Assembly: GCA_037783545.1 (NCBI GenBank)
Contig: JBBELK010000024.1
Coordinates: forward strand, 992,001 to 1,056,000
Source of the DNA: Henricia sp. BOLD:AAB3569
Lineage: Eukaryota > Echinodermata > Asteroidea > Spinulosida > Echinasteridae
Direction: 5' to 3'
Length of the DNA: 64,000 nt
Shown piece after piece: positions 6,587 through 60,918 of the stretch. Within the stretch, counting starts at the first letter, position 1. Each line of letters starts with the position of its first letter. Position numbers and translations under genes: made by a program. The notes beneath the pieces were generated by a model that had not been told where the DNA came from, did no database searches, and saw nothing but the letters and a program-made list of their open reading frames with translations.

Positions 6587-7429
6587 TTACTCCATTTCTT
6601 TCTTCTTTTTCTTTTTCTTCTTTTCTGAACTCGGCTGCAAAGAAAGTAAAACAAGAAATTTATAGTATTTATGAAGGCCCCAAATCCTCTCCGAAGTCAA
6701 TTAGAATTGATTTAGTTCGGAATCAGAATTCCAATTCTGTCTTTTGGAGGAATTAATTCCCATTATCTTTGCAATATTCAAGGAATTTAGCAGCGTTCTA
6801 TATTTGGTTTTGAAAATGGAATAAAATGTTAATGGAATCGCAATTCCTGAGTGGTGAAACACGACAGTAAATATTTTCTCCTGTTCCACTTAATTATTAA
6901 TACATGGATTCTGTCATACCTTTGTCTGTGTATATATGCAATGGGAACCAAACCCAGTAATTATAACCCCATGTATATGTGCATTCCGAACATTACAAAT
7001 TGATAAGAATTGTGTTCCATGTGTACACTGCCAATCAGAGTTAGATTGATATTGTCTTCACAATTCAGACGGCACTTCCTTGTCATCATTTTGGCAGTGA
7101 CGATTCTATTATCTTATTTAAACTCCCCAAAATCTTATTAATTGAATAGTTTTGACTTTCACTTCTGTGGAGTACAGAAACAATTTGTGATAATATTGGA
7201 AAAATGGAAGACTCAAATTTTACTTAGCCTTTGAATAGGACTCCTAGAGAATGTGAGCCCACTAATTGGACAGTGTGATTTTACTTCAGGTCATGCTAGT
7301 TGGCATTTTGCTATAGTGTATAATTAATTGTTTACCCTTAAAAAGACAATCTTGGGAAGAGCATCTAATGTATAAGGGCCATCCAAAGTTGTCAAAATTT
7401 TTACGGTTCTACAAAGCGTAGGAAGGAGG

Positions 7430-7467
<38 letters not shown>

Positions 7468-10400
7468 GTTTGTTGAAGGGTCGCGTTGAACTTTACATGC
7501 ACTGTAAAATGTTGACATTTCATGGTACTGACAGAAAAATGTTGATAAGTAGTATTTCAGGGCGAGGGAAGGGGGTCTTGAATAATAATACATTCTGTAT
7601 AACTCTTAAAATGTTGACAACTTTGGACAGCCCCTAATCCGAGTTGAGCTTACCGTTTCTGGTTCGGTGGGAGCCATCTCAGATTCAGCGACTTCTTCTG
7701 CCAATCGCTTCTTTTTCTTCTTTTTCTTCTCAGATTTGGAGGCTGGTTCGGGTTCCGACAAAAAAATTATAAACATGTTTTTAGCATAAAGCTCATATTC
7801 TGTGCAAAATAGCTATAATGGGTTGTGGCATGTGTTCTTGACAACACTTGAAGTAAACTTGTCACTTCTACCAAGCCCACTTGTATCCCGAGAACTCTAG
7901 TTTGTTGGTGCAAGGAATGTAGAGCTGGTTCCTTTAGCTATTATGCAAGCTTTTGACGAAGCTTATGAACTGTGTGCAGTTTACTTGAAATATGCTTCAC
8001 ATGATTGTCCTTCGTACTTTTGCTGGGTCAAAAATCTGAACAATATTTTTGCTTTTGAAAATGAAATGTGGATTATTTCCAAAGCCTTTTTGGTTATTAA
8101 TTATCAACAAGAATATTATTTGCAATTGATACTTTCTGCCTGTAAAATGTAGTTACTTAAAATTGATTACATGAAATATTTGACAACGACACAAAGTTTT
8201 AAACAACACTGCTGATCAGGGTTGGATTGACTGAGTCATCAGATTTCAGACGGCAATTCCTTGGTCATCATTTCAGCAATGAGAGCTTAAAACATTTAAT
8301 TCTTAAAGAATGTGTTCAGATTTTTCCAGTAAATGGATTTAACTTTAACCTAACAATCATATAAAATACCTCCCCAAGTTCTATCCATGGGAAGGAAACG
8401 GAAATTTGCAATCTCCAATTTGGATGTGGAAGCAAAAGGTTGGTGTAATTTACTGCTTTATGGAATTGATAAATTAGTCCACAAAAACATTGGTTTTTTG
8501 ACGATATCCTTGAAGATATATGGATTGAGAGCGCGAAATTTCAGAATGGTAAGAAAAATTTGACACATGTTATCAAAATCTCAACATCCGTGTGAAAAAT
8601 GGGGGGTTCAAAAATGTAATATTTTAATTCCTAATCCTTCAAATCCTAACAAATAATATTTGTACATACCTTCTGTTGGTTCCTCTTTAACTTGTGCAGG
8701 TTGTACTTCCTCTTCTTCCAGTGATTTCTTTCTCTTTTTCTTTTTCTTTGGTGTCACAGCATCCCCATCCTCCCCAACTTCCACTTTCATCTTCTTAGTT
8801 TGTGTTTTTGTTTCTTCATCGCTTTCTTCTAATTTCCTCTTTTTGGGCACGGAGGGTAGTGTGGAGTCGTCGGCAGCGCTGTAGGTTCGAATCTCACTCT
8901 TATGCTGGTACTTATCAGCACGAGCTTTGGCTTTCCCGGTTCCGCTGATTCGATGCATCTGCAGGTTTAAGATCACAATGCATAACCGATCGACTGTTAG
9001 CAAGAACATCTGACCAAAAGCTAACCACTTGACGCCGGAGGACGTTTAAACACGCTAAGATTTCCGCATCGGTGTAGCGGAGGACTTGTTAACACGTTTA
9101 GGGGAAATTAACTTGTTACTGCTTTTGACGTCTACACTTGCAGTAATTTACGAGGAAAATGGGCAAAACAGTTTATAACAAAGCGGTACTGGGGTGTACA
9201 AAGTCGGTGCATCGACATAACAATATTTTACCGCGCATGGTTAATGAGTTTAGTTGTTTTCCTTCCTCCATGCTTCAACTAAAAATAATCCTGTGCGGAC
9301 AGCAATGTTTGAAATTGGAGAGATGTGCACTGTATGATTTTTTTGATTAAAATGCTTTACATGTATATAAACCTAGAGCTGGTAGTAGTAATAATGGAAA
9401 GAATGGAACAACTGAAATAAGACATAAATAACCAGATTGCACGCAGAATGCCAAAGTATGTACAAAGTATTGTACTACAAGGAATGCCAAATGAACGCAC
9501 AGAACTGATGAAGTTTCGGCGTGCACGGTTAGTGATTCCGATGTTTAGCTAACTCCAAAAAGACTTAATGATTTGCTACAATATGAATGCCTTAGGATGA
9601 GAAAAATATAGAAAAATTTGTAAAAGGACAATCAATTTTGCAAGCATACTATGTGGTTTTTCTTGGGTTTGGTCAAGAGAAATAATTGGTTGAAAAAAAT
9701 GGACTATGCGGAATATTTGAAGTTGAGTAACGCTGCTGATCAGGGTTGGATTGACTGAGTCATCAGATTTCAGACGGCAATTCCTTGGTCATCATTTCAG
9801 CAATGTCGGCCTAAACTTTATATTTAATTCTTCTACATCAACACAATTTCTTTGCTGGTTCTTACATAAAAATCACGTGGGCAGTCTTAAACTAGTGATG
9901 ATGACATAAATAACCAGATTGCACGTAGAATGCCAAAGTATGTACACAATGTATTGTACTACAAGGAATGCCAAATGAATGCAAGGAAATGGTGAAGTTT
10001 CGACAATCTTACCGTTCCTTCTTCCAGCTGTCTTAACCTTGCTTCAATCTTGGCTCTGCTCTGAATACCGATTTCTAAATTATTGTCCTCACCGAGTGCG
10101 TCAACACGGATTGCCAATGAAGCCTTGGCTGCGAGCATTCGGGACACCTGGTAAAAACAAAATGGACAAACGTTTCACTCAAATTAAGCATGTTGGGGTT
10201 TTCAAATCCATTACACGGGGGTGAAACCTGTTCCACGTTTCCGCAGGAAAAGTCTGAGACAAAGACTTCCGCGGAAATGCAGAACCAGTTTCATCCCTGA
10301 TTACAGGAAAATTTCACTCGAGTAAGTAGTTAGTTTGTTTAATACCACCTTTATCTATGGTATTTGGAACACATTTGCTTTTCAAAAGAAACCTTTTCAA

Positions 10401-13400
10401 TGTACTGTAAGCTGCCAACACATTACATTACCAATATTTCCCCGAGTATTTATCAGGGATGCCAGTGGCTCTTACCTTCAGGGCCGGAACAAAAATCATA
10501 ACTGCATGTGTGCACATGGACTCGCCAGCACAGTATACTGTACAGTATACGTACATGGACAGTGTGCAATACATGCAATGGATATGTCAGTATGTATGTG
10601 ATGACTGCTGTATGGATACAGCGCCCTCTGATCAATAGTCTGGTTTCCTGGTACTTTAGCTGTGAATGATTATGGCCAGGATACAGACATACTGCATGTG
10701 TGCAAATCATGTACATGTACATAGGCTGTACATGCATGACATAGGGCATATCCAGACATCGTTAATCAGTAAGTGAGACAATTTTCCACGTTTTTTTGGA
10801 CTTGGAAATATATTCGCTGTTTACTTTTCTGGCCTGGAAAAAAGTCTTTGCCAGGTTTCTTTTTCCAAAATAAGAAAAGCCGGAATTCCGGCTATAGCCG
10901 GAAGACTGGCATCCCTGATTTATACCAAGCACGATCTGTGGTGGAGGGAATCCCCTACTGCCCTTATAAACCAATTTTCCTCAAAACCTAAAATAAAATT
11001 CTTCAACATTCATTGGCTGCAACGGACAACCAAATACAAAGTCTTGTTAAGTAGAATCACAAAGCAAAATGTTTCAATTTTTAATTCAGAAGTATATTTG
11101 TACCTGGTTTAATATGCATTTTATGGGAATGTATTAACAGTATTTTTAAGATGGCAAAATTTACATTTCACTGTGACATTTCTATTTGGTTTTAAATGCC
11201 CTGAATACTTTTGTTTTTGCCCTGAAAGTTTTGAGCAACACTGCTGATCAGGGTTGGATTGACTGAGTCATCAGATTTCAGACGGCAATTCCTTGGTCAT
11301 CATTTCAGCAATGTCGGACAAAACGTTGGATTTAATACTTCTGCGTCAAGTTTGTTAACAAATAAATATATTTTTTTGTTGGTTCTTACATAAGAATGAC
11401 AGAAGTGGAAAACTCCATTCAAGATAAATAATAAGCAAATCCTTGAAGATTTAACTCCACAATAGAGCCTTTGCACGGCGGCCATGACAGGGGGCAGTCA
11501 CATTGTTACCATGTGTCATGCGTGAGTAGGTGCTTTGTGGTTCTATTGTTACATCATTTAGATAAGAAAACCTGCCCCCTGTCATGGCCGCCGGTGCAGA
11601 AGCTCTATTAGCATAATTTTGCAGACCTTTTTTCACTGACCTTTCCTTTGTTCTTTGGATTTGTCTGCCCAACTAACGAGGCGTGGTAAATCAGACCATA
11701 TTTGGGAGTATCTTTTTTGGTCTTGAGTGCCCTGAACAGTGCTTTCTCTGCTCCCAGAATTTGGACTGTGGAGGCTGGGTGTTTGGCGAGATTCATCAAG
11801 GAACCTGCATTTTGAGGATATTAAAAAAAATTGAGCAATTATTTAATTCAGGCATCGGCATCATAAAAATAAGAAACAGGTCACTCTGACCTTTATTTTC
11901 TCTAAATAAACTCCTCAAAAAAAGTTTGGAAAGTCAAGTTTGACTGACGATTTCTCTCTTATTGCAAAATAATTTTCCTTGAATTTTATATTATTCGAAA
12001 GCCCTGTTATTCCTCTTTACGATGCTGTGTCATTTGTTATGATTAAGCAATTGGGGGATGTGCAGCACAGCTGAATACGGGGGCGGGTGTAAAGTGAAAT
12101 GTCACAAAATGCATTGCTATTGTCAAAAAGTGCATTGACACATTCCCATCCTCCCAGCAAAAGGGGAATGCACTGCATGACAATAGCAGTAAATTTTGTG
12201 ACATTTCACTTTTCACCCACCCCTGTATTCCGCTATACTGTACATCCCCCACCGCTATACTGTACATCCCCCAATTGATTAATCATAACAAATGACACAT
12301 CACTGTAAAGAGGAATAACGGGGCTTTCCAATGATACAAAATTCAAGGCAAATTATTTGGTAACAAGAGAGAAATCGTCAGTCAAACTTGACTTTCAGAA
12401 CTTTTTTTGAGGAGTTTATATCAAATGGGGCTCCATGGCCAACTTTGACCGAGACCTGGTCAAACAGGTTTCGCGAAGTAGTCCAAAAGTGTCAACTGAG
12501 TCTGGTTATCAGAATATGAAATTTAAGAGAATTTGGCCAAGTTGGCCTTAGAAATTACATGACGGGGGAATGGGCCAACTTAGCAGGGTATGAGGTCATT
12601 TAACTCAGTTAATGTCTAGATTTATGATTTGCTACAATATGAGTGCCTTAGGATGGGAAAATATGGAAAAATTTGTAAAAGGACAATCAATTTTGCAAGC
12701 ATACTATGTGGTTTTTCTTGGGTTTGGTCAAGAGAAAAAATGGGTAGAAAAAATGGACTATACGGAATATTTAAAGTATTGAGCAACACTGCTGATCAGG
12801 GTTGGATTGAATGAGTCGTCAGATTTCAGACGGCAATTCCTTGGTCATCATTTCAGCAATGTCAGCCTAAACTTTGGATTTAATTCTTCTATATCTACAC
12901 AATTTCTATGCTGGTTCTTACATAAAAATCACGTGGGCAGTCTTAAACTAGCGATAATGACCAGTGATAATGCCCGGCCGGCTGGCCCGTTTTTGTGCCC
13001 TAGTCAGCGCGTATACGGAACACGCACATGCACAAAGTCAAAGAAACTGCAGGCGCCCGAAAGCAAATTGTGCACTTATATTATATATACTTCCGCGACT
13101 TATATTCGGTCGTGTGCGTGAGCGCGAAACACACATGCGTAACTTGCGCGATCGAACAAAAACATGGCGAACAGCTAGCAGTTGTACGTAATTTACTTAG
13201 TCGGTGAAAGTTAAAGAAATTTTATTTTACCTGCATGTGATATAAGTCTTGCGCCAACAAGGTCCCCAACTAGTGTTGTAAGGTTCGGTGCCACAGCCTG
13301 CATTCTGTTCTTCAAATAGTCGTACAACTGAGCTCTGTATTCAGTTATCTCAACGATCTGGAAAGGGAAAGGAACGGGAAAATGACAATCGGGGTATAAA

Positions 13401-16400
13401 CTAATAACAACAAGAACTTTCCAATCTCAACGATTCTAATCAAAATCTCAACAGAAATGTGTAATTTCTTTGTCATTTTGAGTGTGCTTAATTTAACAAC
13501 ATGTGTTATATAACGCCCAAGTAGATCCTTGTCATCTGATTGGATGATAGCAGGTCACGTGTCGTTCAATAATTAATCCATTTAAAGCTACGTCACTAAC
13601 CGTGCAGCTTTGTTCCATTTGCCGTGTGCAATTTTGTTCCATACTTTTTTTCCATTGCACGATGTGCCCACTGTATGTGCGTGTCAAATGTGACGACCCC
13701 CGACACCAACAATTTTTACAACTCACAAGCAACATGGCGGGTTTTGTAATATGACGGCAATGAAATAGCTGAGCTTTGAGACAATTCTGATGCCACCAAC
13801 ATCAAAATAAACTACAAGGGTAAGCCTGAATAATTTATTTTTAAAAATGTAAGATGACAAGGGCGTTATATAAAACAAATAATGAATGACTTTTTGGAAG
13901 GAATGGAAGGAATATTTTCATTCGGTGAAATATGGAATATGTTCTATTCAACTATGTGGTTTTTCTTGGGTTGGATCAAGAGAAAAAATGGGTAGAAAAA
14001 ATATGGAACATTTAAAGTTTTGAGTAACACTGCTGATCAGGGTTGGATTGACTGAGTCATCAGATTTCAGACGGCAATTCCTTGGTCATCATTTCAGCAA
14101 TGTCAGACTAGACTTTATATTTAATTCTTCTACATCAACACAATTTCTTTGCTGGTTCTTACATAAAAATCACTGCTTTATGTAACCGGATATATTGGGG
14201 GCCGTCCATAAAGTACGTAAGCACGAAATGCAGACTTTTTAGACCGACCCACCCTCCCCCCCGTAGAGAAAATTTGGGTGTAAGCATGGTCTCTAACCCC
14301 ACTCCGTGCGTACATACATGTGATTTATGGATGGCTCCTAATCTAATGTTTAATACCAGTATGTGAGTATCAGTTGCAACAGACGTGCATTCTGGGATTG
14401 CTTATTTTCTTTCATTTCAAAATGGCCGTCTTTGCACATCATGTAAAATTGCCCTAAAAACGTGTGATTCTGGGTCTGGTTTTTCCGACAAGACAAAATC
14501 ATAAATTGTGCTATTGTCTCATCACTATGAGAACACTATGTATTTTACAGCATTTATAGTCGTCCAATGGTTTTACCTGTTCACAGAGATAATGAATATT
14601 CAAAAAGTCTTCGTCTGATATTTCCGTTCCCATGGAGATCTCGGCTGCTAGTTTGACATCTTTCTCCAAATCCTCCGGTAGAATATCGGAAAAATCTATA
14701 TCAACTGCTTTGGTTCGGTCTCCTGGTAAAAAAAAGAAAAGAAAACATTTTATGTACAAGTGAATGTCAAAAAATTTCCAGCATGAAATACCATTTTGGA
14801 TGGAAATAAATTTATGTGGTGTTTGTTACCATTGCTATCAGCACCTTGAGTAAGGTTTTTCTTGTCAACTCATGAAAAACAAAATTGGGTCATTGCAAAT
14901 GGCCCTTTAAACTGTAGTTGCACCAAAACTAAAGCACAACAAACAGCAATTTTACAAGAGAAGCAATATTTCTTAGCTATCATTCTCAAAATTAGTTCAA
15001 AATTACCCACTAATCATTACAAAAAACAAAATAAGGAACCTACCCATTAATCTGACTGTCTTGGCAAAGGCTAGATTATCAGTGATGATCTTGCCGAGTT
15101 CAGGAAAATGCCAGCCGTACCACTCACGGCATCGCATTATGTAGTTGTTTAGTTCCTTGTCCAAATCATCCAACAACGCTGTGTGAAATTATGAGAAATG
15201 AAGTTTGTTAAATATTGACCCCTTTCCAATGACGTAATTTTGGGAGTCAAATAATGCCGCATCATTGTGGAAGCAATGTGCGTGCGCGTTCTGTGTGTCC
15301 ATAGTACGCGTAACGCGCTATACTAAGGCTCCCATTGGTGAATTAAACCGCGTTATGCCCACCGCACGCACATCGCTTCCACAATGACTCAGCATTATTT
15401 GACTCCCAAAATGGCGTAATCCCACATGTTCAAAAGAGGTCAATACACTGATTGTGCTCAAAGAAAGGAAATTTGAATTAATTTGAAATTATTAGCCTTT
15501 TAAAAGAGGTATAAAATATCTTAAGAGGTTATGATACAAAAAGGCTTGGTGGTTAAACTTTTGATCCCACTTTGTGTGCCTTTAAAATTCATTTTAGTGA
15601 GGATAATGGAAAACAAATTGACATGACAAAATTGAACATGTTGACATGACAAAATTGAACATGTACCTTTACTATTGCTACTATGCCAGTCATCCTACAA
15701 ATGTACTTTGTACAGACAGTAGGGAGGTTTCGGTCGCATACGGTTAGGCAAAACGACGACTATTAGTGAATTTTACGTCATCAGTTTGTGCGTACTTGTG
15801 GCGTTCATACAAATATCCCAAGTGTTGTTTTGTTGTTTACACCGATAGTAACGCCTCTACACCTTAGTGAAAAACGGACAGCGAAAGGTAACGATTTTGA
15901 GGTTTGGCTAATCGTAGTCGTAATCACTAACCGTGCACACCGAAACCTCACTAGTGTTTCCTCTGTCACAGAAAACCAAAACAAGTCCCTGGCGTTATGC
16001 GGACACATCTAATTCTGCATATTTTTGGTTTGGAAATGAGGTCACGTCAAATCGTCTTTGAATTATGTAACCCTTGGCATTATTACCAAACCAAATCCAT
16101 ACATATATGATACAGGTATGTTGACAATGACTAACTTAACAGAGGGAGGTTTAGGCATCAACAGAGCACATCCTCTGTATAAAGAATGTATTTTTATTTT
16201 TGGAAGTAGTAGTTTTATGCTCAGAGATGCTGTCGTCACCTTAGCGAGCTGGCTTAATTGACAGAGGCAATCCGTCACCAGCTCGCCATCAGGCGCAAAT
16301 TATCTCATCACAGCAATGTTATTAATTATCTCTTGTAGATGTATTTACTTTCATATTCTCAACTTTAATTTTAGGAACTTAGTTTCAAAGATACAAATAC

Positions 16401-19400
16401 GGAAAACTGAAACTTACAAATTGCTTGCACGATCATTGTGTCCACTTTATCTGGGCTGAACTTCAGTTTATATCTTGAAAGACTGCGGAGAGAAAGAAAC
16501 AAAATATAAAGGAAAATATGGATGGTAACATTTGTGTCTCTTTGGGATGAAAACAACTTATGGGGATGCTACCACCAAAGTTCATACAGCATTTGCTTCC
16601 TGCGTTGGGTTTGAAACTGCGTTCGGTTTTTTTATTCACCACTTACACTTAGTGTGATGTGATTTGCCAGGGTAACTGGTCTAAACATTCACTGGTAATC
16701 TAAAACATCCATTACTAAAGCACAGGAAAACAGTTCACTGGTTTTAGTGTAAACCCAGTAACTTTGGCAACACACAAAGGGGGACGAGTTCACTTTAGTA
16801 TTCTAGTGGTGCCAATGTTAAATTTGTTTAGCATTTAGCAACGAAATGTTGCCAGCCAAAATCATAAGTGATGTGTATGGAAAAGTATTACTAAGAACAC
16901 AAGCCGATATACAATTTTGGCTGGTAAATATATCTTTGCAAAAATGTTGGATGGCTTGTCTCAGAGGTAGTGACGAACATTTCTAATCTTCACTTAAAAT
17001 CTGACACTGAATATATGCATCATTGACAAAACCATCCAACATGTACTATCAGTGATATCTCAATGGAATGTGCGTCAGTCAGAAATCCTGTAAGAAAGAA
17101 TTTATCCCCGTGAAAAGAATAACAGAAGCTTAAAGTTCCACTGACCTATGGGCCAGACCAAGTGTCATCGCAGTCAGTTCCCTTTCTGGAAGTCCGGGAA
17201 CAAGATTACTGAATTGAGAGCGGATTCCCCGCATCAGCTCCGCAATAGCGGGGCTGTGAACGCATGATAGGTTGATTTTTTCCTAAGAAAATTCAAGAAG
17301 AGAAAACAATAACATTTATATGTATATACCTGCCAATTTGCAAACTTTGATAAATTTAGGCCGTGTTGTTCGACCTTAGCGGTCGCCCGCTCGCCAAATG
17401 CGAGTGAAAACAGCGGCGGGCGAGTCAAAACCCTTCTCTTTGTAGTCCGGCGGGCGAGTTAAAAAGGTTGAAAGGTCCATATTTCAGAAAGGCATGTACG
17501 GTGGATTTAACACAAAACTTCAGTCCTCATGTGTATTTAATTTATAAATTTCTCCTGTTGATATCCATATAATTTTGGGGCCTCTAGTCCGGCGCATTTG
17601 CCACCGATTTCCACAAGGCCGCTCGCGATCGCGCACGACGTACGTCCGCAGGTATAAAACAGTCTCGTGTACGTGGCATTATTATTTCTCCGGCGCCGAG
17701 GATCGTCGAATATTTCCATAAAAATGACGATCAAGCAAAACACGGTCGCTGCGATGCACGAAAAAACGATCACAAAAATTACGATCGACAACCCAGCTAC
17801 ATGTATGTCATGTAGGAAATGTATAAAAGTCAGAGGTACCCGGAGGTAGATGTTTTTGCTAACGTGTAGTTGGTGCGTTGACGGTGGCTCCGGAGCTACG
17901 TGGTATTGAAATAACAAGCCGGAGGTAGGTTGTAGCATGTACTACACGGTAACAAACAATTCTACCCGGGTCACCTCTGGGTTACTCCGTTACCTCCGGA
18001 CCGACCTCCAGGTTTCAACCACACCCCGTGCACGTGCAGGGGATTTCACGTGCAGGGGATTTCCCGATAAGAGTAAGAGGCCAACTCGTGTTGTAAAACG
18101 CATACTGATTGGCTGATAAAAATAATATGACCTGTTGCTTGTAAATTCTGGCCAATTACGTTCGGTGATCGGCATGAGTTGGACTGGTTACCGCCCCACT
18201 AAAGCCGGGAATTTTTTGTCCGGAAACCAGACTAGGCACGTTCCGGCGCCCGGTGGACCAGCACACGGTGGACCGGGCCGTCTGTACCGTATCGAGAGCT
18301 GTTTTTGGTCGAGCCGATACGCACGTTTGTACGTGGGGAGAACCTCAACGTTGGCCAACAACAGGTACCAGGCTTTCCATAGACGCGTGCACAAAAGCAC
18401 TGAAACCAGTGGCGGACGTTGGGCCAACGTTTGTGTGTTTGGAATGCAACCCATGTGTACGGCCATAATGCATAGGGAAGAAACAATGGCACATGTATCG
18501 ATACATGTACATGCACATGCATGTCCGGACATTCATCCGGTTTGTTTACACATGTGTACACATGCACATTAACCACGATGCTAACCACGTGCGCACGGCC
18601 AGCACGGGGCGTTCGTAAATGAAATTTTCGGAACGATTTAGAAGCTTTTAAAAGTAATAGATGAAAAAGAAATGGAAAACTACCTGTTTATTTTTACATT
18701 TGGAAGGAATTTAATACTTGGCAATTACCAGACCTTTACAAAACACATGAGAACAGAGTTTTTCCTAGTAAAGTTATTCCTGCTACATGTTGTTTCTGTT
18801 AAAATCTTCAATTTTTTTTTTTTTCACTATTATTTTTTTCCTCATCAAATGTGAACCTATTGATGCTTTGATAATTCGTTCTGTACCGCTGAAAATAAAA
18901 CTAAAGCCTTTTCTTTGCAAAATTCCACACTCGATAGATGTTGGTACAAAATGAAGAAATTTAGAAAAAAAAGGGTAAAAACATGCGGGCTAGTGAAACG
19001 GCTTGCGGACTACCTAAAATGTTGGTTTACTAGTCCGGCCGGCGAGTGAAAAAATAAGTTAAGGGAAACCCCTGAAATAGCCACTGGACTTGGGGCAATT
19101 AACGTAGGTCCCCTTTCACATTTAAAAGGTGAATTGCAACGTCAACAATTTGAAGACATTTCTTAATGCGAATGCAGGCCTCTTCAATTGAATAAGATTA
19201 GAATACCTTAGTTTGATTAAGTAAAACGGCTTATTCAACAAAGATAGCTTCATTTGATAAAGTAAATTTGCAACGTGTATGCCCCCTTGGTCCAATAAAG
19301 TAACTTGACAAGAGGGGGCACCCGCTTCAGACACAATTGGCAGGGCTGTATACTCCCCAGGGAGGCGAGACGGTTCTTAGCGATATTTCAAGATGCGTGT

Positions 19401-35035: not shown

Positions 35036-35990
35036 AAAGCTCCCCCAGTAGTGCCCCGGTAGTTCATCACTGTAGAACCCCAGTAGTTCCTCCAGTAGCC
35101 TCTTGGTAGCTCTTCCAGTAGTTCCACCATTTTTGATACTTCTGAAGTGTTTACAATGCTCCATTCCACCACTGTCAAAATGACTATTCCTTCTCAGTGA
35201 TCTTGCGATGCATGCCTGTTAAAGAAAAATTAGAAATTGTCCTGAAATGAGCAGTGTAAAGTACAATCCAAAATTCATATGCCCCAGGTTCTCATGTCAT
35301 TTATCAGTGCGTTTGTTGCAGTTCTTAATTGTTTTTAGTTACTGCACAAGTACTATTGTTCCTTCCCCCAACCCCCCCACTTCAAAATTAATATGCCTCT
35401 GGTGTGATTCGTTTTATTTCACTATGGTCCAACCCGATTGAATTTTCGCCACATTTCTAGTTGTGGACTTTGCAGTTGAAAATCTCCCCAAACCAAACAT
35501 TAGGTTTATATTTTTGGCCCAGATTGAACTTCCACTCCCAACTACTGTGCCCCAAAGGAAAATGAAATTTGTATACTAAACCACTCTGCACTTGTTCGGT
35601 TCTTCGGCAAGGAGCTAGGAGCACACCGGGACTTCTCCACATGGTAGGCAGGGAGGGAACATGTGCAAAACTGAAACAAAGAATGGTTATTTTTAACATT
35701 TCTGGTTACGCGCCCATCCCCAACATCGCATCCCCCCCAGTTTAAATTTATTTTGCAACAGTGTTCCCTCCCAAAGGATCATCCAGTTCATATGGCTGAA
35801 AAGAAGAACGAAAAGACGTCCCAACATATTGAGTTGGGGACAGGTAGGCCCGTGGGGAGGGAAATTTTGAAGACCGAGCTGAAATAACATCCTAACATCT
35901 TACCAATTCCCTCCCCACGCATCCATCTGTAGCGGGTCCTGAAACAAAACAAAAATCAAACTATTATTGTTAAGAGCAGTGCAGGACTAA

Positions 35991-36129
35991 AGCGGGCCTC
36001 CCACTGTGCGATATTTGCCACGAATTTCCTACAAATTGGTACGATTATCGGAGACTGCCTATAGACTCTACACAATCGTAACCAATCGTAGCTAATTCGT
36101 GGCAAAAATCGCACAGTGGGAGGCCCGCT
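35991..36129. mobile_element. PIF/Harbinger-like MITE, copy in 867-bp unit 1
   Basis: Ends AGCGGGCCTCCCACTGTGCG and complement, flanked by TAA on both sides. Inner arms pair (GCCACGAATT, TACGATT). The 3-bp TAA duplication is typical of PIF/Harbinger. Confidence 0.8.
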
Positions 36130-36856
36130 TAACCCACGAAATTGTGTATACCTCCTCCCTTTCATAACTTTTGAATGTCCCAATTGAGAGCATGCAGTTG
36201 TCCTTTTTTGTTAACATGCATGGCCACTTACATTTCCCAGATGAAAGGTGCTCCCCTCTGGTGTGATTTGTTTTATTTCACTATTGTCCAAACTGATTTA
36301 ATTTTCCCCACAGTTCTAGTTGTGGACTTTGCAATTGAAAATCTCCCCAAACCAAACATTAGGTTTATATTTTTGGCCCAGATTATACTTCCACTCCCAG
36401 CATGCAACTACAGTGCCCCAAAGGAAAAGGAAATTTGTATACTAAACCACTCTGCACTTGTTCGGTTCTTCGGGAAGGAGCTAGGAGCACTCCGGGACTT
36501 CTCCACATGGTAGGCAGGGAGGGAACATGTGCAAAACTGAAACAAAGAATGGTTATTTTTAACATTTCTGGTTACGCGCCCATCCCCAACATCGCATCCC
36601 CCCCAGTTTAAATTTATTTTGCAACAGTGTTCCCTCCCAAAGGATCATCCAGTTCATATGGCTGAAAAGAAGAACGAACAGACGTCCCAACATATTCAGT
36701 TGGGGACAGGTAGGCCCGTGGGGAGGGAAATTTTGAAGACCGAGCTGAAATAACATCCTAACATCTTACCAATTCCCTCCCCACGCATCCATCTGTAGCG
36801 GGTCCTGAAACAAAACAAAAATCAAACTATTATTGTTAAGAGCAGTGCAGGACTAA

Positions 36857-36996
36857 AGCGGGCCTCCCACTGTGCGATATTTGCCACGAATTGGTACGAT
36901 TATCGGAGACTGCCTATAGACTCTACACACAATCGTATCCAATCGTACCCAATCGTAGCTAATTCGTGGCAAAAATCGCACAGTGGGAGGCCCGCT
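36857..36996. mobile_element. PIF/Harbinger-like MITE, copy in 867-bp unit 2
   Basis: Same insertion site, orientation and TAA duplication as in unit 1, so it was copied along with the unit. Confidence 0.8.
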
Positions 36997-38394
36997 TAAC
37001 CCACGAAATTGTGTATACCTCCTCCCTTTTATAACTTTTGAATGTCCCAATTGAGAGCATGCAGTTGTCCTTTTTTGTTAACATGCATGGCCACTTACAT
37101 TTCCCAGATGAAAGGTGCTCCCCTCTGGTGTGATTTGTTTTATTTCACTATTGTCCAAACTGATTTAATTTTCCCCACAGTTCTAGTTGTGGACTTTGCA
37201 ATTGAAAATCTCCCCAAACCAAACATTAGGTTTATATTTTTGGCCCAGATTATACTTCCACTCCCAGCATGCAACTACAGTGCCCCAAAGGAAAAGGAAA
37301 TTTGTATACTAAACCACTCTGCACTTGTTCGGTTCTTCGGGAAGGAGCTAGGAGCACACCGGGACTTCTCCACGTGGTAGGCAGGGAGGGAACATGTGCA
37401 AAACTGAAACAAAGAATGGTTATTTTTAACATTTCTGGTTACGCGCCCATCCCCAACATCGCATCCCCCCCAGTTTAAATTTATTTTGCAACAGTGTTCC
37501 CTCCCAAGGGATCATCCAGTTCATATGGCTGAAAAGAAGAACGAAAAGACGTCCCAACATATTCAGTTGGGGACAGGTAGGCCCGTGGGGAGGGAAATTT
37601 TGAAGACCGAGCTGAAAAAACATCCTAACATCTTACCAATTCCCTCCCCACGCATCCATCTGTAGCGGGTCCTGAAACAAAACAAAAATCGAACTGTTAT
37701 TGTTAAGAGCAGTGCAGGATTAACCCACAAAATTGTGTATACCTCCTCCCTTTCATAACTTTTGAATGTCCCATTTAAGATAATGCAGTTTTGTTCTTTT
37801 TTTTTTTAACAATTACATGCATGGGCCAGATGAAAGGTGCTCCCCTAATTGAAGTCCAGAGCCTCAAATATTCTTTAGTTATGTCATGTTTTTGGAATTT
37901 GTAAAAATATTTTTATCTGCAAGAGATATGTGTATTTAAGTTATATGAATTGTAGTTTATACCGACATGCAAATAATTTCCTCGGCTCACGCCTCGTGCT
38001 TCCAACTACTCACGCCTAGTGTGCCTGATCAAGCAAATTGCTCTACCAACAGAACATTTTATCTGAATACTTTCCCCAGAAAATACCAAGAATTTGGTTT
38101 GACACAAATTTCTTATGACCCAAAATTAGTTAAGTAAAATGAGCTTGTGATACTCCACCAATATGCAGCGTTGTTCAACAGCTCATTCAGTTGGTTGGGT
38201 AGTAGGAGTTGAGGCTTCCCGGTACTTCTCATGGTAGACATAGCAGGGAGGGAACATGTGCAAAGACTGGTTATATGGAGCAAGCTCGATCAAGCGAGTC
38301 GGCTGATCGAACTTGCTCTTTGCTTTAACTTAATTTGCAACATTGTTCCCTCCCAAGAGATCATCCAGTTCATAAGGTTGAAAAAAAGAAGCCC

Positions 38395-39010
38395 TGAACT
38401 CGTTCAGTTCTCAACTGAACGAGTTGAGGACTTCATATATATAGACCGTATCGAGTAGCCGCCATTTTGTAGGGCAGTTTCTTTGTTCCTTGAGGACATG
38501 CATGGTTGCACATATTGTGCTCCCATTGTTAAACAGTTTAACAAAAGGTGCACCACGAAATGGTTGTTAACAATGGTTTGTGCCCAATTCCCATTGTTAG
38601 TTGCTCATAGTGCTATAGCTGGAAAAAAAAACCGAACTCATTAAGTTGGGAACTGAACGAGTTGGAGACTTCATGTAGCTAAAAGAGGGGGGAAAAAGCC
38701 CTGAATTCGTTCAGTTGGTAACTGAACGAGTTGGGGACTTCATATAGAGCGGTTTCACACTGTCACGGGTCACTAAACATCTATGTTTGTCCTCCAGATC
38801 GGGAAGAGAATAGAACCTCATGCTTTTTGCTTGCAGCCACGTGCATTTCGGCACATGTCTCTTTTGTTCTCTCCCGATCTGGAAAGCCAAACAAGGAAGG
38901 GTTTTAGTGACCTGCGACAGTATGAAACTGCTCTATAGCTGAAAAGAGAAAGGAAAAAAGTCCCAAACTCGTTCAGTTGAGAACTGAACGAGTTGGGGAC
39001 TTGTCCACTT
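38395..39010. repeat. Cluster of four CTCGTTCAGTT/AACTGAACGAG hairpins
   Basis: Hairpins with stems of about 11 bp and short loops at about 38398, 38635, 38703 and 38957, each followed by GTTGrGGACTT. A MITE (38751-38936) sits between the third and fourth. Confidence 0.75.
38751..38936. mobile_element. MITE, GAGCGGTTTCACACTGTC ends
   Basis: Relative of the 4279-4432 element: inverted ends GAGCrGTTTCAyACTGTC, with CTCCCGATCTGGA inside. TA on both sides. Confidence 0.6.
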
Positions 39011-39768
39011 GGTAGGCTCATGGGGAGGGAAAGTTTGAAGACCAAGATTCCCTCCCCACGCATCCATCTGTAGCAGGTCTGAAACAAAACAAAACAAAAT
39101 CTAATTTTATTCTTGTGAAGAGCAGCACAGGACTAACCCACCAAATTGTGTATACCGTTACAGCCTCCCTTTCACAACTTTTGAATGTCCAATTTCAGAG
39201 CGTGCAGTTTTGTTAATGCCCTTCTGAAGTTATGAACTACTTGCCCCTTACACTCCCAGATTGCCCCTTACAGGGTCTCATTAGCCACATTTTACAGAAC
39301 ACGCAACCGCGAGGTCTTTTCCCCTCTTGCAATCGGACATAAAACCAGCATGCAAGGAAGATTTTGCACACCATGCATTACCATAATGTTGCATTTTTAT
39401 TATGGACCTGGCAGCAAGCAACCAACAATGGTCTGCTCGTTTAGCTGTGACCCTGTGCAGTATTTTCTACACAAAATTGTGAAATGCATTTAGCTCTTCC
39501 CAGCACCCTGTATATATGGGTGTTGAGTTCAAGCAAACCCTCCCCTACTTTTGAACATTCCATTTAAGAGCATGAAGATTTTAACCCATACTAAGCCCAA
39601 TGACTACACCCTGCTCATGCCTTGTAACATCCAACTAGCACTATATTTAGTTTGCTGCATGCACACATGTAATGAACACCCCCCCCCCTTCAACTGGTCA
39701 GGTCTATAGTAAGACCCCATCCCAATTGCTCATGCCTAAGAACCCCTTCCCGAATTTATACAAATTTA

Positions 39769-39951
39769 GGGGTCATCCAAAGTCAACATTTTCACGGTTC
39801 TAAAAATTTTAGTATTTTTCAAGACACCTCTCCCTCCCCCGAAATAATACTTAACATTTGCTGTCACTACTATGTAAAGTCCCACACAGCTCTCAACCCC
39901 CTCCCACCCCTTTGTAGAACCATGAAAATATTGACAGATTTAAACAGCCCC
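39769..39951. mobile_element. MITE, GGGGyCATCCAAAGT family copy 2
   Basis: Inverted ends as at 7375-7636: GTCAACATTTTCACGGTTCT and its complement near 39915-39940. Confidence 0.55.
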
Positions 39952-42224
39952 GTGTACTCCACCAATAGGAAACAATATATCTGAATACTCCAATGTCAGT
40001 GCATATATAGCTGGTTTATCTGGTTGTGTAGGCGAGACCTCATCAACATGCAGTAGTGTTCCCTCAGGAAGAATCGTCAACTGTGAATGGCAGAAAAAGA
40101 AAAAGAGGATTAACTTAAGAGCAGCACAAAGGTGCAGCCATTTGCAGTGAAAGCAATCTGAGCTATACATTCGTAAGATGCCTCCACAAATGTATAAACA
40201 TTACATTCTACACTGTCGGGGTGCAGCGTTTCCTCGTGTTCCTCGGACTAAATTACAGCTTTAAAAGACCAGTGTATAATTTGCAGTGACCAAACAATAT
40301 TCAAATTAAAGATAAGGAACCTTTTACTTACTTGGGTTTACCCAAAATGTGCTCCTTTGAGTCAACAGTGACTTGTATCCACAACTTGCTGGAACAATGT
40401 AGTCACCAACATGGGTTGAATCAATGAGAACCAATCTGTAGAGCACACTACTTTTGCAAAATATTCCTTAAGTTCAAGCCTTTATTCCCAAGACTTGTTC
40501 CGACAGTACCAATTGATCTATCTTGGAATCCTATTTGCCATAGGTGGATACGCTAAAAATGTACTTGTGCAGAATAGCACCAGCCAATTTTCCCTTTGGA
40601 CTATAACATGTTGAAAGAACAAAGGAATGGTGAAACCAGACCAAACCATGATATGAGAAAGGCTTGTGAGGATGCACACTGCCCACCTTGCATGTGTATG
40701 TGTTCAGCCAGTTGGTGTATGAAGTCGCATGAATTGCTTAAAGGCAATGCAGATGGACCATGGTAGTAAACAATCCCCCACGTTTGTCAGATGCTTGACA
40801 TTTGTGGATGTACCAAGTGTATTCAGAGTGGCAACGAAGGAAAGATTAAAGGATGAAAATCAGAGCTCACGATATGACAGATGGATGCAAAGTACTGAGG
40901 AAAAAGGCATTGGAAATGGCTTTCTGTCGAGGGGAAACTTTTATAAAGTAGCGTACTCTACAGACACATGTTCCTGGAAAGAGAAAACAGAAATTTTTTA
41001 TTATAGCATTTGTCTTCAAAATTTGCATCCAGCTGCTTCAAAATATGTAATGTTATTCCTGGTTGAGTATGTGCATTCACTAAACTCTGGCCTAAGTGTT
41101 TATAACTTAAATACCTATTGTTGGATTTTTGTGATTTCATCATTAAGAAGCCGTTAACTTTTAAAGCGAGAATTATTAACTGCATTTAATTTATCAACCT
41201 GAAGCACATTGCTAAAACAAAACAGCGCAATTTATCAGACTGCTTTTGAATCTTAAATTGCCTTAGCTGCACCAGATTGGTGCGGCTGTCTTGCTCATTT
41301 CAACTCTAGTTCAAACCTGATCTAGTCTCCTTTGTGAATTTAGCAGATTTCCCCCAAAAAAGTGCTTCCCTAATGAGTTTTATAAGTTGTGGTTGTCTGA
41401 AAGAAAGAAAAAAATATGGTCGGCACCAAACAAAATGTCATGTCTGCAGACATAACATTGAGTGTGTCGGTAAATGTTAAATATTTCCAGGATGATCACA
41501 TCTTGGTGGCCACAGTCATTAAGATGTGTTGACCAATTAACACAATTCTAAAACATCCCTAATTTCTCATTTAACCCTTAACTGCTCATGACCCATGTGC
41601 CTCAACTATATGCTACAGTATGCAACATTTTATTTGCATATACTCCACACTTCTGGTTGAGTTCTCAAACATGCAGGCAGAAGAGTCATCAATATGCAGT
41701 ACTGTTCATTTTTGAAGATGGTCAACTGTGAATGAAAGAAAAATAAAATGGAAATAGTCGTTACAGTAGCACATGGATTAATTTTTATCAATTTATCAAT
41801 TTATTTATTTATTTATTTTTTACTTTCTTACATAGCACCATCCCATTTTGTTTTTTAAGGCGTCATTTGAAGGCTTTGCATTTTAGAGGTGAAAAGCCTC
41901 CACAGTACAACTGTCTAAATATTAGTTTTTGGATGCTGTTTTTCTTTGGGGGTGTCTTGCGCTGTTTATGTCCTTGGACAAGAAATATCTTTAAGGAATT
42001 ATTGCGTCGGTCCAAATGATAACATTTCTTCTCCTAATTTTCTGACTATGGTTTGTGGTTACTGCATCATTTTCATTAGGTCTATTTATCATATCTGACA
42101 ATTGTTTTGTCCAACAGCAAAAGTAAGGTTTGCAAATTCTGGTACTCCTGGCTGGAAACGCGTCTCGGAGCTTGAAAGGTCTTATGGTTGTATTTCGAAA
42201 TTGTTTGTAAATAAGTCAGTTTAC

Positions 42225-42612
42225 AATACTGGAGAGACTTTTTCACCAGAATCATAACTCTATGCAATGCCAGTTATTTTCTCTCAAGATCGAGGAAGAC
42301 AACCTAAGCAACAAATAATGCAACAACATACCTTTCTGAAAACCATGTGTACAAATTTCCTATTCAACGTATGTAACACAAAACACATGTACATGTACTT
42401 TGTGACATTTTTTGGTGTCCTTGTTACATACGGTATATTGGAAATTTGCACACAGGGCTTTCAGGAAGGTATGTTGTGGCACTATTCGTTGCAGTTCTTT
42501 AGCTGAAGTTATCTCCTTGGATCTATCTTAAGATATTTCTTTTTGAGAGAAGATGAATGACATTGTCATTGTATAGAGATATAATCCTGGAGGAAAAGGT
42601 CTCTCCAGTATT
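42225..42612. mobile_element. Foldback MITE, TACTGGAGAGAC ends, copy 1
   Basis: AATACTGGAGAGAC at the left and GTCTCTCCAGTATT at the right. The two halves are inverted copies over their whole length, meeting near 42400. TA at both ends fits a Tc1/mariner-type target. Copy 2 is at 59758-60157. Confidence 0.7.
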
Positions 42613-42764
42613 AAAAACAGACAAATAAGCTTCCAGACAATGCTTTGTCATGCATCTGCTCACCTGGTATCACAGTTGATTTTAACAGGTCAGCAAAGAC
42701 TGGAAACTAAAATTGGTAGGTGAAATCCATGTGCATCTGTAAAAACATCCATCCACGCTTAACC

Positions 42765-42825
42765 AACTTGGGGCCGTAGCGCCCTCCATCGTCCTCTGTC
42801 CAGGGCCACCTCCCTGTACAAATAG
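42765..42825 (-). mobile_element. Possible LINE 3'-end fragment
   Basis: The minus strand encodes VALDRGRWRALRPQ, which resembles the C-terminal ALDRxRWR motif of many non-LTR reverse transcriptases. Only about 15 residues are seen, so this is weak. Confidence 0.3.
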
Positions 42826-43974
42826 GGCGACAAGAAAAGAGTGCACCCAATGACAAAGTCTTACATGTATGTGGGATACTTATGAAAATAAAACATTACC
42901 CTAATTGAACTGCATGAAAATATCAAGATAGGCCTACATGTGTAACTTCCTGGCAGCATGAAGGGAGGTCACATTGTAAGAAAAATGTTTACCATATTGA
43001 TGCATCCCAACCCCAAAAATAGTTCTAGTCGAGCATACTTATCAATTGGCCATTTGAAAAATAACCTAATGTTCACCCAACCCTTTAAAAATACCCTTCT
43101 ACAATCTGGTTTTAGGTAGTCCCCAACTACCAATTCACATTAACAACAGCACTTACACTTCATCCTGCATGAGCACCGAACTCGCATTAATGAACAGACT
43201 CTCCATCCAGTTCATGTGCCAGTCATAACTTTCTAGAGTAATTTCTAGATTTTAAACTGTCATCAGCAACTAGGGTTCGGAAACTGGTTCATTTCATTCA
43301 TCTATTTGAAGCCGTTCGATGATCAGTGGGCTTGAAATTTATAACAAAGTTTGAAATTCTGGACTGAAAGCTTTAATGCTACTTGGCGAGGAAAACAGTT
43401 TTTATAAAACGGATGTTACTTGATAAAGTTGCGTTTTTCTTATATTTATTGCCGACTATTTATATTAGAGAGAAAAATGAAAAATTAGACCGTGTTCGTC
43501 AACCGGCCAAAATGAAAAACGGGGTGATGAAGTCTTAATGATATGCATTGACCCGCCACGTCACAGCGAGGAGACAGTCACTATTTTGCAAAGCAAGTTG
43601 CATGCTTTCCGCATAGCATAAACTACCAGTCGTTATTTTTCTGTAAAAACGTTATCAACGTTATCAACGTTTTCGGTGTATTTTCGCAGTGGTTACACTC
43701 GGTGTTTGCTGCAAGTAGCTATACACGACCACAATCAGTGAAGCAGCTCTGTGGTCTCCTCGCTATGACGTCACACGGTGTTGAAAACCATGAAAGTGAA
43801 GGGAGATTTCCACCCAGCTTTTAATAACCAATATTAAAGTGTGAAGCCTGTTCAAAATAATTTCCGGTTAAATTCCATATCCGAAGGTTTTGTCTTAATT
43901 AAAAATTCAAAACATCGTTCAAACAAATTTTAATATTGGTTCTTAAAAACTGCACTGTTCACAATTAATACCGT

Positions 43975-45160
43975 TTGAGCAACCCGTTTCAAACAATTTC
44001 TTACACCGCCGTTCGAAACCCAATTTCAAACCATTTTTTAACCGCCGTTCGAAACCCTGTTTCGAGTCATTTCACCCGTTTTGGAACCATTTCAATTTTT
44101 AACCGCTTTTCGAAACCCCATTTCAATTTTCAACCGCCGTTCGAAACCGTTTCGAACCATTTCCAGCGCCGTCCGAAACCCGTTTCGAACCATTTCAATT
44201 TTAAACCGCCGTTCGAAACCCCGTTTCGAACCATTTACACCGCCGTTGAATTTTTTACACCTGTCCGCCGTTCAAAACCCTGTTTCGAACCATTTCAATT
44301 TTCAACCGCCATTCGAAACCCCATTTCGAACCATTTCAATTTTCAACCGCCGTTCGAAACCCCGTTTCAAACCATTTCAATCTTCAACCGCCGTTCGAAA
44401 CCCTATTTCGAACCATTTAAATTTTCAGCCGCCGTTCGAAACCCTGTTTCAAACCATTTCAATTTTCAACCGCCATTCGAAACCCTATTTCGAACCATTT
44501 CAATTTTCAGCCGCCGTTCGAAACCCTGTTTCAAACCATTTCAATTTTCAACCGCCGTTCGAAACCCTATTTCGAACCATTTCAATTTTCAGCCGCCGTT
44601 CGAAACCCTGTTTCAAACCATTTCAATTTTCAACCGCCGTTCGAAACCCCGTTTCGAACCATTTCAATTTTAAACCACATTTCAATTTTCAACCGCCGTT
44701 CGAAACCATATTTCGAACCATTTCAATTTTCAGCCGCCGTTCGAAACCCTGTTTCAAACCATTTCAATTTTCAACCGCCGTTCGAAACCATATTTCGAAC
44801 CATTTCAATTTTCAGCCGCCGTTCGAAACCCTGTTTCAAACCATTCCAATTTTCAACCGCCATTCGAAACCCCATTTCGAACCATTTCAATTTTCAACCG
44901 CCGTTCGAAACCCTGTTTCAAACCATTTCGATTTTCAACCGCCGTTCGAAACCCCGTTTCGAACCATTTCAAGCGCCGTTCGAAACCCCGTTTCGAACCA
45001 TTTACACCGCCATTCGAAACCGGTTAACCCCATTTCGAACCATTTCAATTTTAAACCGCCATTCGAAAACCCCGTTTCGAACCATTTAACACCGCCATTC
45101 AAAACACCGTTTCGAACCATTTCAACCGCTGATCGAAACCTTTTTCGTACTATTACACCA
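43975..45160. repeat. Satellite of a 41-bp unit (about 28 units)
   Basis: Units of CCATTTCAATTTTCAACCGC plus CGTTCGAAACCCTGTTTCGAA. Each unit has a dyad GTTCGAAAC-CCCn-GTTTCGAAC. The unit has no stop codon in any forward frame and is not a multiple of 3, so two long overlapping forward frames (232 and 368 codons) arise by cycling. The array decays at both edges into shortened units. Confidence 0.9.
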
Positions 45161-46476
45161 CCATTTCTAACCAAACAAGAAAATTGAAAATACCCGTTCA
45201 ATGGTCATCTACTCAATTTTTCCCTACAACTTGGGCATAAGTAATTTCCTTTACAAAAACGGTTTACCGGTACACATACATACAAATACATACATGTAAG
45301 CTACATGTATATAGGCCTACCCAAGTTCTGTCCGTTTCTGTAGCCTGTAGGCTACTGCAAATACCTCCATGGTATGAATTCCGTTCACTGGTCGCCACTG
45401 AGGTGCCGTCCGTTAAGAAACAGGGCAGAAACAAGTTTATTTTCAAGGAAATTGTAATGTTGAATGTTTTTCACTCTTAAAATCACTTCCCCTCAACAAA
45501 TCTTACGTAGAACAAGCAATGTGAGGACGTGTGCTATCTCGTTCACCGCCGACATAAAAATGGTGGCCGCTTACGCTCAACATGTGTTGCGAGTACATAT
45601 TTGAAAGGGCGCGCATTCCAATACCCGCGCAGTAATACAACTAGACTGGTTCCCGTCCACATATTCCACACAGGAGAATATAAGGACAGGTAAAGGGCGC
45701 CTCATCTTGATCTGTATTGGTCGTCTTTGCGCGTGCACATTGTGTTTTTTATATTTAAAAATTGGCCAAGCTTTAGGCAATGTACTTTATTAACATAATT
45801 TGATATGTTCGACACGCACGGCCAAGTTACAAATGTCAATGCAAAATCTGCGCACTTACTAAAATAATAATAATAATAATAACCACGTGACGGGCAGAAT
45901 TCTGCCCGTCATGGCTGCCCTTTACCGATCCCTATATTTTCGCAATAAGCGAACCAATCTCTAGGGATCGGGAACCAATCTATAATACAACCTCCTCGCA
46001 AAACGCTGATTGGCTGGCTGAATTTTCCCTCAAAGCTAGAGTCAATAGAAATATTTCAAATAGCACTGATGATGTATGCAGCTGAGCTTGCTGAGCCACG
46101 CATTTAATAATACGCCACGTGTCTTTTTGTTCGCCAATTTGAAATTCCCACAGAACTCCATTAACAATAGAAATTCCTCAATTCTCACGTGACAACTGAT
46201 AGCTCTACCGCTCTAGCCCTTTTCGATCAAATGCCATGTAGGGGTTCGCCATAAAAAGTAGTCCCTCTTTTCGCAAAAAGAAAATGGAATAACAAAGTTT
46301 GTTTTTTTAGTGGTTGCCGAACTTATTAGACTTCGATTGAGATATAGATACCATGAAAACATATTTACGGGACTCTAATTTTCACAAAAGGTGAATGTGT
46401 AAGGTCAATAAATATTATTCTCCCATGGCGAAAAAGGTAGCTAGCCACGTGCTAAAACGTCAGTTGCCATTGTAAT

Positions 46477-46568
46477 TGGGTCTAAACATTCTCTGGTAAT
46501 CTGAAATGTCCATTGCTAAAGCGCAAGAAAAAGGTTCACTGGTCATGCTGGTTTTAGTGTAGGCCCGC
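46477..46568. mobile_element. MITE copy, GGGTCTAAACATTC family, upstream of JMJD4
   Basis: Begins TTGGGTCTAAACATTCTCTG and carries GTTTTAGTGTAGG near its end. About 200 nt before the JMJD4 start codon. Confidence 0.5.
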
Positions 46569-46778
46569 GGTAACCAACCCTTACCAAAAATGCCAATTAA
46601 ATTTCCAATTGGATCCAATTAGTTTTAATTGGATCTCCGATTGAAAAATGGGTTGATTTGAATTTATTTGAATTGGATTTGGTTGGGAATCGAGTAGGAA
46701 ATTGAATTGGACCTAACTTCAATAACTGATATTATTGGATGTTTATTCTTTTAGACCCCTGTGAATTACTGCATCGGC

Positions 46779-60654: not shown

Positions 60655-60918
60655 AATAGACCTTTATCACGGTGCGACCATCTTCCATTTTCCCCTATTA
60701 AAATGAACGTAACCAAAGCGAGGCTTGCAGAAAAAATAGTTTGGCCCCGTGTTGAAAAATGTTCATTGTGTGCATGACAAGAGCGCAGCGCGATCAAGAA
60801 AACGCGCAGCGCGGAGAGTGATTCTCTGAAAACGACAACGGAAGATTGCACGCGCAGATAGTGCCCGGCTTACTATGGGGAACAAGACAAAGATGGACGC
60901 ACCGTGATACCGGTCTAT
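60655..60918. mobile_element. Inverted-repeat element, ATAGACC..TATCACGGTGCG ends
   Basis: ATAGACCTTTATCACGGTGC at the left and GCACCGTGATACCGGTCTAT at the right; AAGATGG-type sequence next to both ends. Confidence 0.6.

Follow-up and report, generated by a model that had tools for sequence, protein, structure and literature searches.

Six successive introns of the NOP58 gene of Henricia sp. each harbour one member of a C/D snoRNA family. Judged from its sequence, this array is real and most likely functional. We consider it likely that it represents a double-guide C/D snoRNA family which was duplicated within NOP58, whose copies have been kept alike, and whose guides are now partly split between them. 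The copies are predicted to direct methylation of two sites in 28S rRNA that are 38 nt apart.

The host gene and the six copies

The window is the whole stretch of 64,000 nt that was analysed; it comes from contig C24 of an assembly of 740 Mb, in which copy counts of repeats are to be read as lower bounds. All 13 introns of the NOP58 model (Table 1) are GT-AG. A PDB search with the 544-aa protein gave human NOP58 as the best match (E 1.1e-213), with human NOP56 at E 1.4e-96, and the protein has the Pfam domains NOP5NT and Nop.

A repeat search of the region returned six related stretches at a spacing of ~1.2-1.5 kb. Together with the 14-exon model, this confirms the report of the first-pass annotation that introns 8-13 contain one copy each, on the host strand. 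Its reading of the cores also holds in the window, with identical cores in introns 8, 10, 11 and 12, two changes in intron 9 and a divergent copy in intron 13. Its description as the same snoRNA in six-fold form applies to five copies (introns 8-12), the intron 13 copy being a relative with a different guide balance.

Table 1. Coordinates of the features discussed in the text (positions in the window unless a contig is named).
Feature	Position	Strand	Basis or remarks
NOP58 coding region, 14 exons, 544 aa	6587..23009	(-)	GT-AG introns, open frame, PDB and Pfam matches
NOP58 exons 1-5	23009-22965, 21127-21051, 20586-20534, 20142-20018, 17282-17146	(-)	
NOP58 exons 6-10	16482-16418, 15178-15044, 14722-14577, 13357-13231, 11804-11641	(-)	
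NOP58 exons 11-14	10147-10013, 8958-8670, 7742-7654, 6634-6587	(-)	
SNORD70, NOP58 intron 5 (other family than the array)	16949..17037	(-)	Rfam RF00575, 60.5 bits, cut-off 50
C/D snoRNA core, intron 8, 67 nt	14032..14098	(-)	boxes C, D', C', D and terminal stem
C/D snoRNA core, intron 9, 67 nt	12791..12857	(-)	C' box TGACGA and one further change
C/D snoRNA core, intron 10, 67 nt	11243..11309	(-)	repeat search, motif scan
C/D snoRNA core, intron 11, 67 nt	9735..9801	(-)	repeat search, motif scan
C/D snoRNA core, intron 12, 67 nt	8211..8277	(-)	repeat search, motif scan
Divergent relative, intron 13, 66 nt	7030..7095	(-)	retains the SNORD49-type D' guide intact; in its SNORD69-type D guide, a U faces the (predicted) methylated G
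Duplicated segment of ~340 bp comprising the intron 11 copy and its intron flanks	9565..9905	(-)	alignment, flank search
SNORD65/snR77-like C/D snoRNA, nine copies	C482:823749-853391	same as surrounding exons	pattern search
SNORD65-like snoRNA, two further copies	C58:215381 and 224517		pattern search

Read on the minus strand, the copies show ATGATGA (box C), CTGA (D'), TGATGA or a degenerate form of it (C') and CTGA (D), enclosed by an outer stem. Box C (RUGAUGA) and box D (CUGA), with a terminal stem of 7-12 positions, are present in 6/6 copies, as is the D' box CTGA. The C' box is TGATGA in four of the six, TGACGA in intron 9 and TGAAGA in intron 13. The C/D snoRNA anatomy proposed earlier (boxes C, D', C', D and a terminal stem) is supported by this motif reading and also by a strict scan of both strands of the 64 kb (box C [AG]TGATGA, CTGA in range, stem score >=5), which returned exactly the six NOP58 copies. 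When the stem score was lowered to >=4, seven candidates were returned. In 60 first-order Markov shuffles, the strict scan found 0.23 candidates on average and never more than 1. The scanner misses the window's SNORD70, whose box C differs. The box D guide of this SNORD70 (16949-17037), UUCGUCACUACC, is complementary to the species' own 18S rRNA (GGTAGTGACGAA).

In comparison to the other copies, the intron 13 copy has two stem pairs that are changed on both sides (U-A to C-G, G-C to A-U). This covariation, which was equalled in 26/500 shuffles and comes from only six distinct, closely related rows, is supportive of the snoRNA fold, not decisive.

Distances to the 5' splice site are 211-558 nt for the six copies, and those to the 3' splice site 395-1095 nt (478 and 674 nt, respectively, in intron 8). 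Vertebrate intronic snoRNAs typically lie ~70 nt from the 3' splice site, and the distance of 395-1095 nt was counted against the array. If expressed and processed, the copies are predicted to yield an RNA of 65-72 nt, with its 5' end at about GCTGAAATGATGA. As a box C/D snoRNA, it would be packaged with SNU13, NOP56, NOP58 and fibrillarin.

Guides and predicted rRNA targets

Over UCAAUCCAACCCUGA, the box D guide of introns 8-12 matches the Rfam consensus of SNORD69 (HBII-210; RF00574) exactly, and it shares the SNORD69 target register, while the D' half of SNORD69 is unrelated to the array. Correspondingly, the D' guide of the intron 13 copy has AGGAAGUGCCGUC and the target register in common with SNORD49 (U49A/B; RF00277), whose D half is unrelated to this copy. 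In pairing computed on human rather than Henricia 28S rRNA, the box D guide pairs with the stretch GUUGGAUUG, and the methyl group would fall on the equivalent of human G4464, which we take to be the SNORD69 site. The D' guide of intron 13 pairs 38 nt upstream, and the methylation predicted there corresponds to human C4426 (the SNORD49 site). For all four guide versions tested, the best register sets the fifth nucleotide on this same C or this same G. The human 28S stretch that was used is the one printed in the excerpted text of PMC12477938. The same targets would apply in Henricia if its own 28S rRNA reads, as expected, GUUGGAUUG at the G4464 site and GGCUCUUCC at the C4426 site. Avian 28S primers contain both target stretches as well (excerpt of PMC10864109). 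In chicken, U49 is assigned to 28S C3911 and HBII-210 to G3949, which are 38 apart (excerpt of PMC2653536), and 28S Cm4426 is listed with SNORD49A/B in the text available from PMC9941101.

The copies differ in how well they pair at the two sites. At G4464, the D guide of introns 8-12 forms nine Watson-Crick pairs (n2-n10), and that of intron 13 has a G-U pair at n5. At C4426, the D' guide of intron 13 forms 10/11 pairs (n2-n12), with a U-U at n6 that is also seen with the SNORD49 consensus. The D' guide of introns 8-12 has two adjacent mismatches there, the one at n6 and a second at n7. Because copies 8-12 lost this D' pair and the intron 13 copy has a G-U at G4464, an ancestral double guide (G4464 and C4426) looks partly split. 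If divergence proceeded in this direction, the G4464 guide would survive in the copies of introns 8-12 and their C4426 guide would be largely lost, and the copy in intron 13 would have retained the C4426 guide, with its G4464 guide being weakened.

The D' guide of introns 8-12 may have found a different target. With the species' own 18S rRNA near U585 (which we take to correspond to human U627), it forms 11 contiguous pairs, two of them G-U, at -17.5 kcal/mol, compared with -13.9 kcal/mol at 28S C4426. The fifth nucleotide faces U585, the SNORD65/snR77 site. We equate it with chicken U588, which has GGgCD16/HBII-135 as its assigned guide (excerpt of PMC2653536). We nevertheless regard a switch of the D' target to U585 as doubtful. 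The pair at the base to be modified is G-U, and the nine SNORD65-like copies on contig C482 (see below) share a guide that is fully Watson-Crick at this site (-23.9 kcal/mol for one representative).

An 18S target for the D guide was rejected. One match begins only at n5 (GGATTGAC). The strong 18S duplex of introns 8-12 (-16.1 kcal/mol, with -12.7 kcal/mol at the G4464 site) leaves n5-n7 unpaired and is therefore not in a methylation-guiding register.

A second array and the role of the host

A genome search with the U585-guide pattern returned 18 hits, of which nine on C482 and two on contig C58 look SNORD65-type (Table 1); the remaining seven have no CTGA in range. The nine copies on C482, one of which has CCGA for box D, have in common a 13-base complement to the species' own 18S rRNA around U585. 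RPL5 accounts for five of them: each of four is flanked by two successive detected exons, and the fifth precedes all detected exons, probably in intron 1. Four are found among minus-strand KH-like exons (one exon was checked in Pfam). The layout of one copy per successive intron recurs in the Henricia genome and is not special to NOP58. Since SNORD65-like copies are spaced along RPL5, this layout does not require that the host encode a C/D core protein.

It had been proposed in the first-pass annotation that the dose of the guide would be tied to that of the NOP58 core protein. This idea is weakened and is not adopted here, mainly because the RPL5 array shows the same layout. Multiple copies may still raise the guide yield per NOP58 transcript, and such an extra dose might be of advantage.

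We also consider it unlikely that the array is a feedback device, in which NOP58 protein would bind the snoRNAs while they are still part of its nascent pre-mRNA and alter its splicing. The similar layout in RPL5 speaks against it. It would fit such a device that the host is NOP58 itself and that each transcript would offer six sites. There is a precedent in NOP56, another C/D core-protein gene hosting a C/D snoRNA (SNORD86). However, SNORD86 is described in the excerpted text of PMC11028025 as a single orphan that acts in cis in autoregulation, whereas the NOP58 copies carry rRNA guides. Less likely still is a combined account, according to which NOP58 would hold every detectable guide for the two 28S sites, the ancestral double guide would be split, and the array would be a multi-dose source and also a sensor, with NOP58 protein adjusting the splicing of its pre-mRNA as it packages the six snoRNAs there. 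Feedback on a C/D core-protein gene from its own hosted snoRNAs becomes testable with this locus, as does an effect of intron-by-intron copy number on the level of rRNA methylation.

Distribution in the genome and the two haplotypes

A genome search with a 99-base query of the main type gave 10 matches, which are the five NOP58 copies on C24 and five on contig C103. The query of the intron 13 type gave two matches, one on each of these contigs. No copies outside NOP58, which the first-pass annotation had named as evidence that would speak against its reading, were found in these searches (10/10 and 2/2 matches at NOP58), which score only the best candidates. A mobile repeat was rejected as an explanation: in the genome searches, the core occurred nowhere but at NOP58 (on two contigs), and the shared flank nowhere but in NOP58 introns 8, 9 and 11.

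Exact-pattern scans of the genome were made for the guides themselves; they miss guides that are one base off. For the SNORD49-type guide, there were two hits, both in NOP58 intron 13, and also two for the reversed control. For the SNORD69-type guide, 10 of the 11 hits are in NOP58 introns 8-12 (control: 0), and the eleventh does not resemble a snoRNA. C888:115153 was rejected as a further SNORD69-type gene, box spacing and stem not fitting when inspected by eye.

Up to base 60663, where the compared C103 stretch ends, most of the window aligns with C103 in the same order, in blocks of ~83-99.7% identity. The NOP58 exons of C103, when joined by similarity, code for 546 aa with no inner stop. 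Because of this collinearity and the open NOP58 exons, C103 is read as the other haplotype (haplotype B, with haplotype A in the window). Its interpretation as a second gene copy was set aside in favour of an allelic haplotype, given the collinear order and the open NOP58 reading.

Two further observations concern the comparison of the haplotypes. A stretch of 12.7 kb (36996-49681) shows 99.1% identity between them amid more diverged sequence. At 35396-37790 and C103:140014-142754, there are tandem units of ~0.87 kb, which align in more than one phase between haplotypes.

Identity pattern, duplication and probable gene conversion

The earlier statement that the RNA is better conserved than its flanks is confirmed, with 97-100% identity in the core among the copies of introns 8-12 and 33-93% in the flanks. 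For 20 paralogous pairs (ten per haplotype), the core matches in 67/67 positions in 10 pairs and in 65/67 in the other 10. In the same pairs, 45 upstream columns are 47-93% and 50 downstream columns 33-91% identical. When the haplotypes are compared, the cores of introns 9-13 show no difference, and those of intron 8 match in 65/67 positions. The haplotypes agree in only 22/44 columns of the downstream flank in intron 12, yet in 67/67 of the core.

Intron 8 carries the common core in haplotype A, and an intron 9-type core within intron 8-type flanks on both sides in haplotype B. We take this difference as probable short-tract gene conversion between introns, in which either haplotype may have changed; the exchanged tract comprises roughly 60-100 nt (by eye). 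The involvement of selection and/or gene conversion, as suggested in the first-pass annotation, thus gains support, one exchange being seen directly between the two haplotypes.

Selection must act besides conversion, because boxes, guides and stem pairing persist. Selection on its own would mean that the copies are old and independent and have stayed identical since every base is needed. The guides, boxes and stem are indeed the most conserved parts. However, 65/67 positions, spacers included, are invariant in the ten intron 8-12 sequences of both haplotypes (variation is confined to positions 40 and 47), and the intron 13 copy shows that some of these positions tolerate change. Moreover, the two changes typical of intron 9 are found linked to each other in intron 8 of haplotype B. 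We thus think it improbable that selection alone has acted. More probably, short-tract gene conversion and purifying selection have jointly kept the copies of introns 8-12 nearly identical.

Introns 9 and 11 share ~343 columns at 92.7% identity, snoRNA included, and intron 8 shares ~230 columns with them at 90-91%. All six matches of a genome search with a 163-base query from the intron 9 flank fall within NOP58, in introns 9 and 11 and, in part, intron 8 of each haplotype. Because core and flank matches are confined to NOP58 introns, and because of the shared segments of 343 and 230 columns, we conclude that the copies spread inside NOP58, presumably from intron to intron by duplication. The copies have the marks of cis-duplication: one host, different introns, one strand, shared flanks and no copy found elsewhere.

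The shared segments would also agree with very recent duplication alone, by which the copies would be alike simply because they are young. We consider this very unlikely. The flanks of introns 10 and 12 are only 33-75% identical to the others, in contrast to 65-67 of 67 positions in the core, and the disparity between flank and core in intron 12 recurs between haplotypes, as described above.

Rfam scores and family assignment

The Rfam gathering score was reached by 0/6 copies. With SNORD69 (RF00574), the six copies score 25.6-29.9 bits, all under the cut-off of 37. With SNORD49 (RF00277, cut-off also 37), the intron 13 copy scores 27.7 bits and the others 19.6-24. A relaxed Rfam search ranked SNORD69 highest for the main type; for intron 13, SNORD49 and SNORD69 were among the best. 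The top score of the intron 13 copy is that for SNORD44 (33.2 bits, cut-off 40), compared with 27.7 for SNORD49 and 26.7 for SNORD69. The SNORD44 alignment, as we read it, falls on the boxes and on no guide. With scores below both gathering cut-offs, the array is classed neither as SNORD49 nor as SNORD69; in guide function, it is predicted to act like both.

That the copies are decayed or passenger repeats with no function would be in line with the lack of an Rfam gathering hit, but boxes C and D and the stems in 6/6 copies, and a core identity far above that of the flanks, make this highly improbable.

Relation to known systems

Duplication of snoRNAs into neighbouring introns is established for chicken and other vertebrates (PMC2653536), human C/D families (PMC8178906) and sponges (PMC3412847), according to the excerpted text of these papers. 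The first-pass annotation knew of no described six-fold array of this kind in NOP58. The kind as such is described: chicken NOP5/58 already hosts duplicated C/D snoRNAs, namely SNORD11B-type copies in introns 8 and 9 and SNORD70-type copies in introns 3 and 6 (excerpt of PMC2653536). Host and one-copy-per-intron duplication are the same as in the array, but the families are others, the targets are in 18S rRNA, and there are two copies of each. A SNORD70-type snoRNA (HBII-234) is thus hosted by chicken NOP5/58, as SNORD70 is by intron 5 of the Henricia gene.

The chicken homologue of SNORD69 is a single copy in GNL3 intron 8, whereas the array occupies six introns of NOP58, and the chicken host of SNORD49 differs as well (excerpt of PMC2653536). 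Guides for 28S sites 38 nt apart are found in one RNA here and in two genes in the chicken list. Chicken GGgCD57, in introns 1-4 of one host, has likewise undergone cis-duplication, with fewer copies and in another host (PMC2653536), and the H/ACA copies of sponge RPL13A are likewise in neighbouring introns, again fewer and in another host (PMC3412847). A guide split is not reported for either of these in the excerpted text of the two papers.

As far as the searches show, what is new is the six-fold extent in NOP58, the combination of SNORD49 and SNORD69 guides in one RNA with their apparent split, and the haplotype with an exchange. A six-fold snoRNA array in NOP58 was named in none of the titles and abstract openings of the open-licence literature searched. 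The locus may offer a natural case of guide RNAs that multiply and divide labour, with six copies in one gene and an exchange caught between haplotypes.

Minor observations

Intron 9 also contains an inverted-repeat element (11903-12419), which looks MITE-type; related stretches are found at 1091-1261 and in the other haplotype. A hairpin within this element (12077-12236) has a weak mir-335 score (31.4 bits, cut-off 64). Long pure C and G runs are present at ~1554-1602 and 7431-7466 of the window. When COX1 is translated with the invertebrate mitochondrial code, a sensible protein results, in which AGA and AGG fall at Ser-like positions. At C424:329573, a 28S fragment is joined to other sequence, which holds a GC-rich repeat of ~12 bases.
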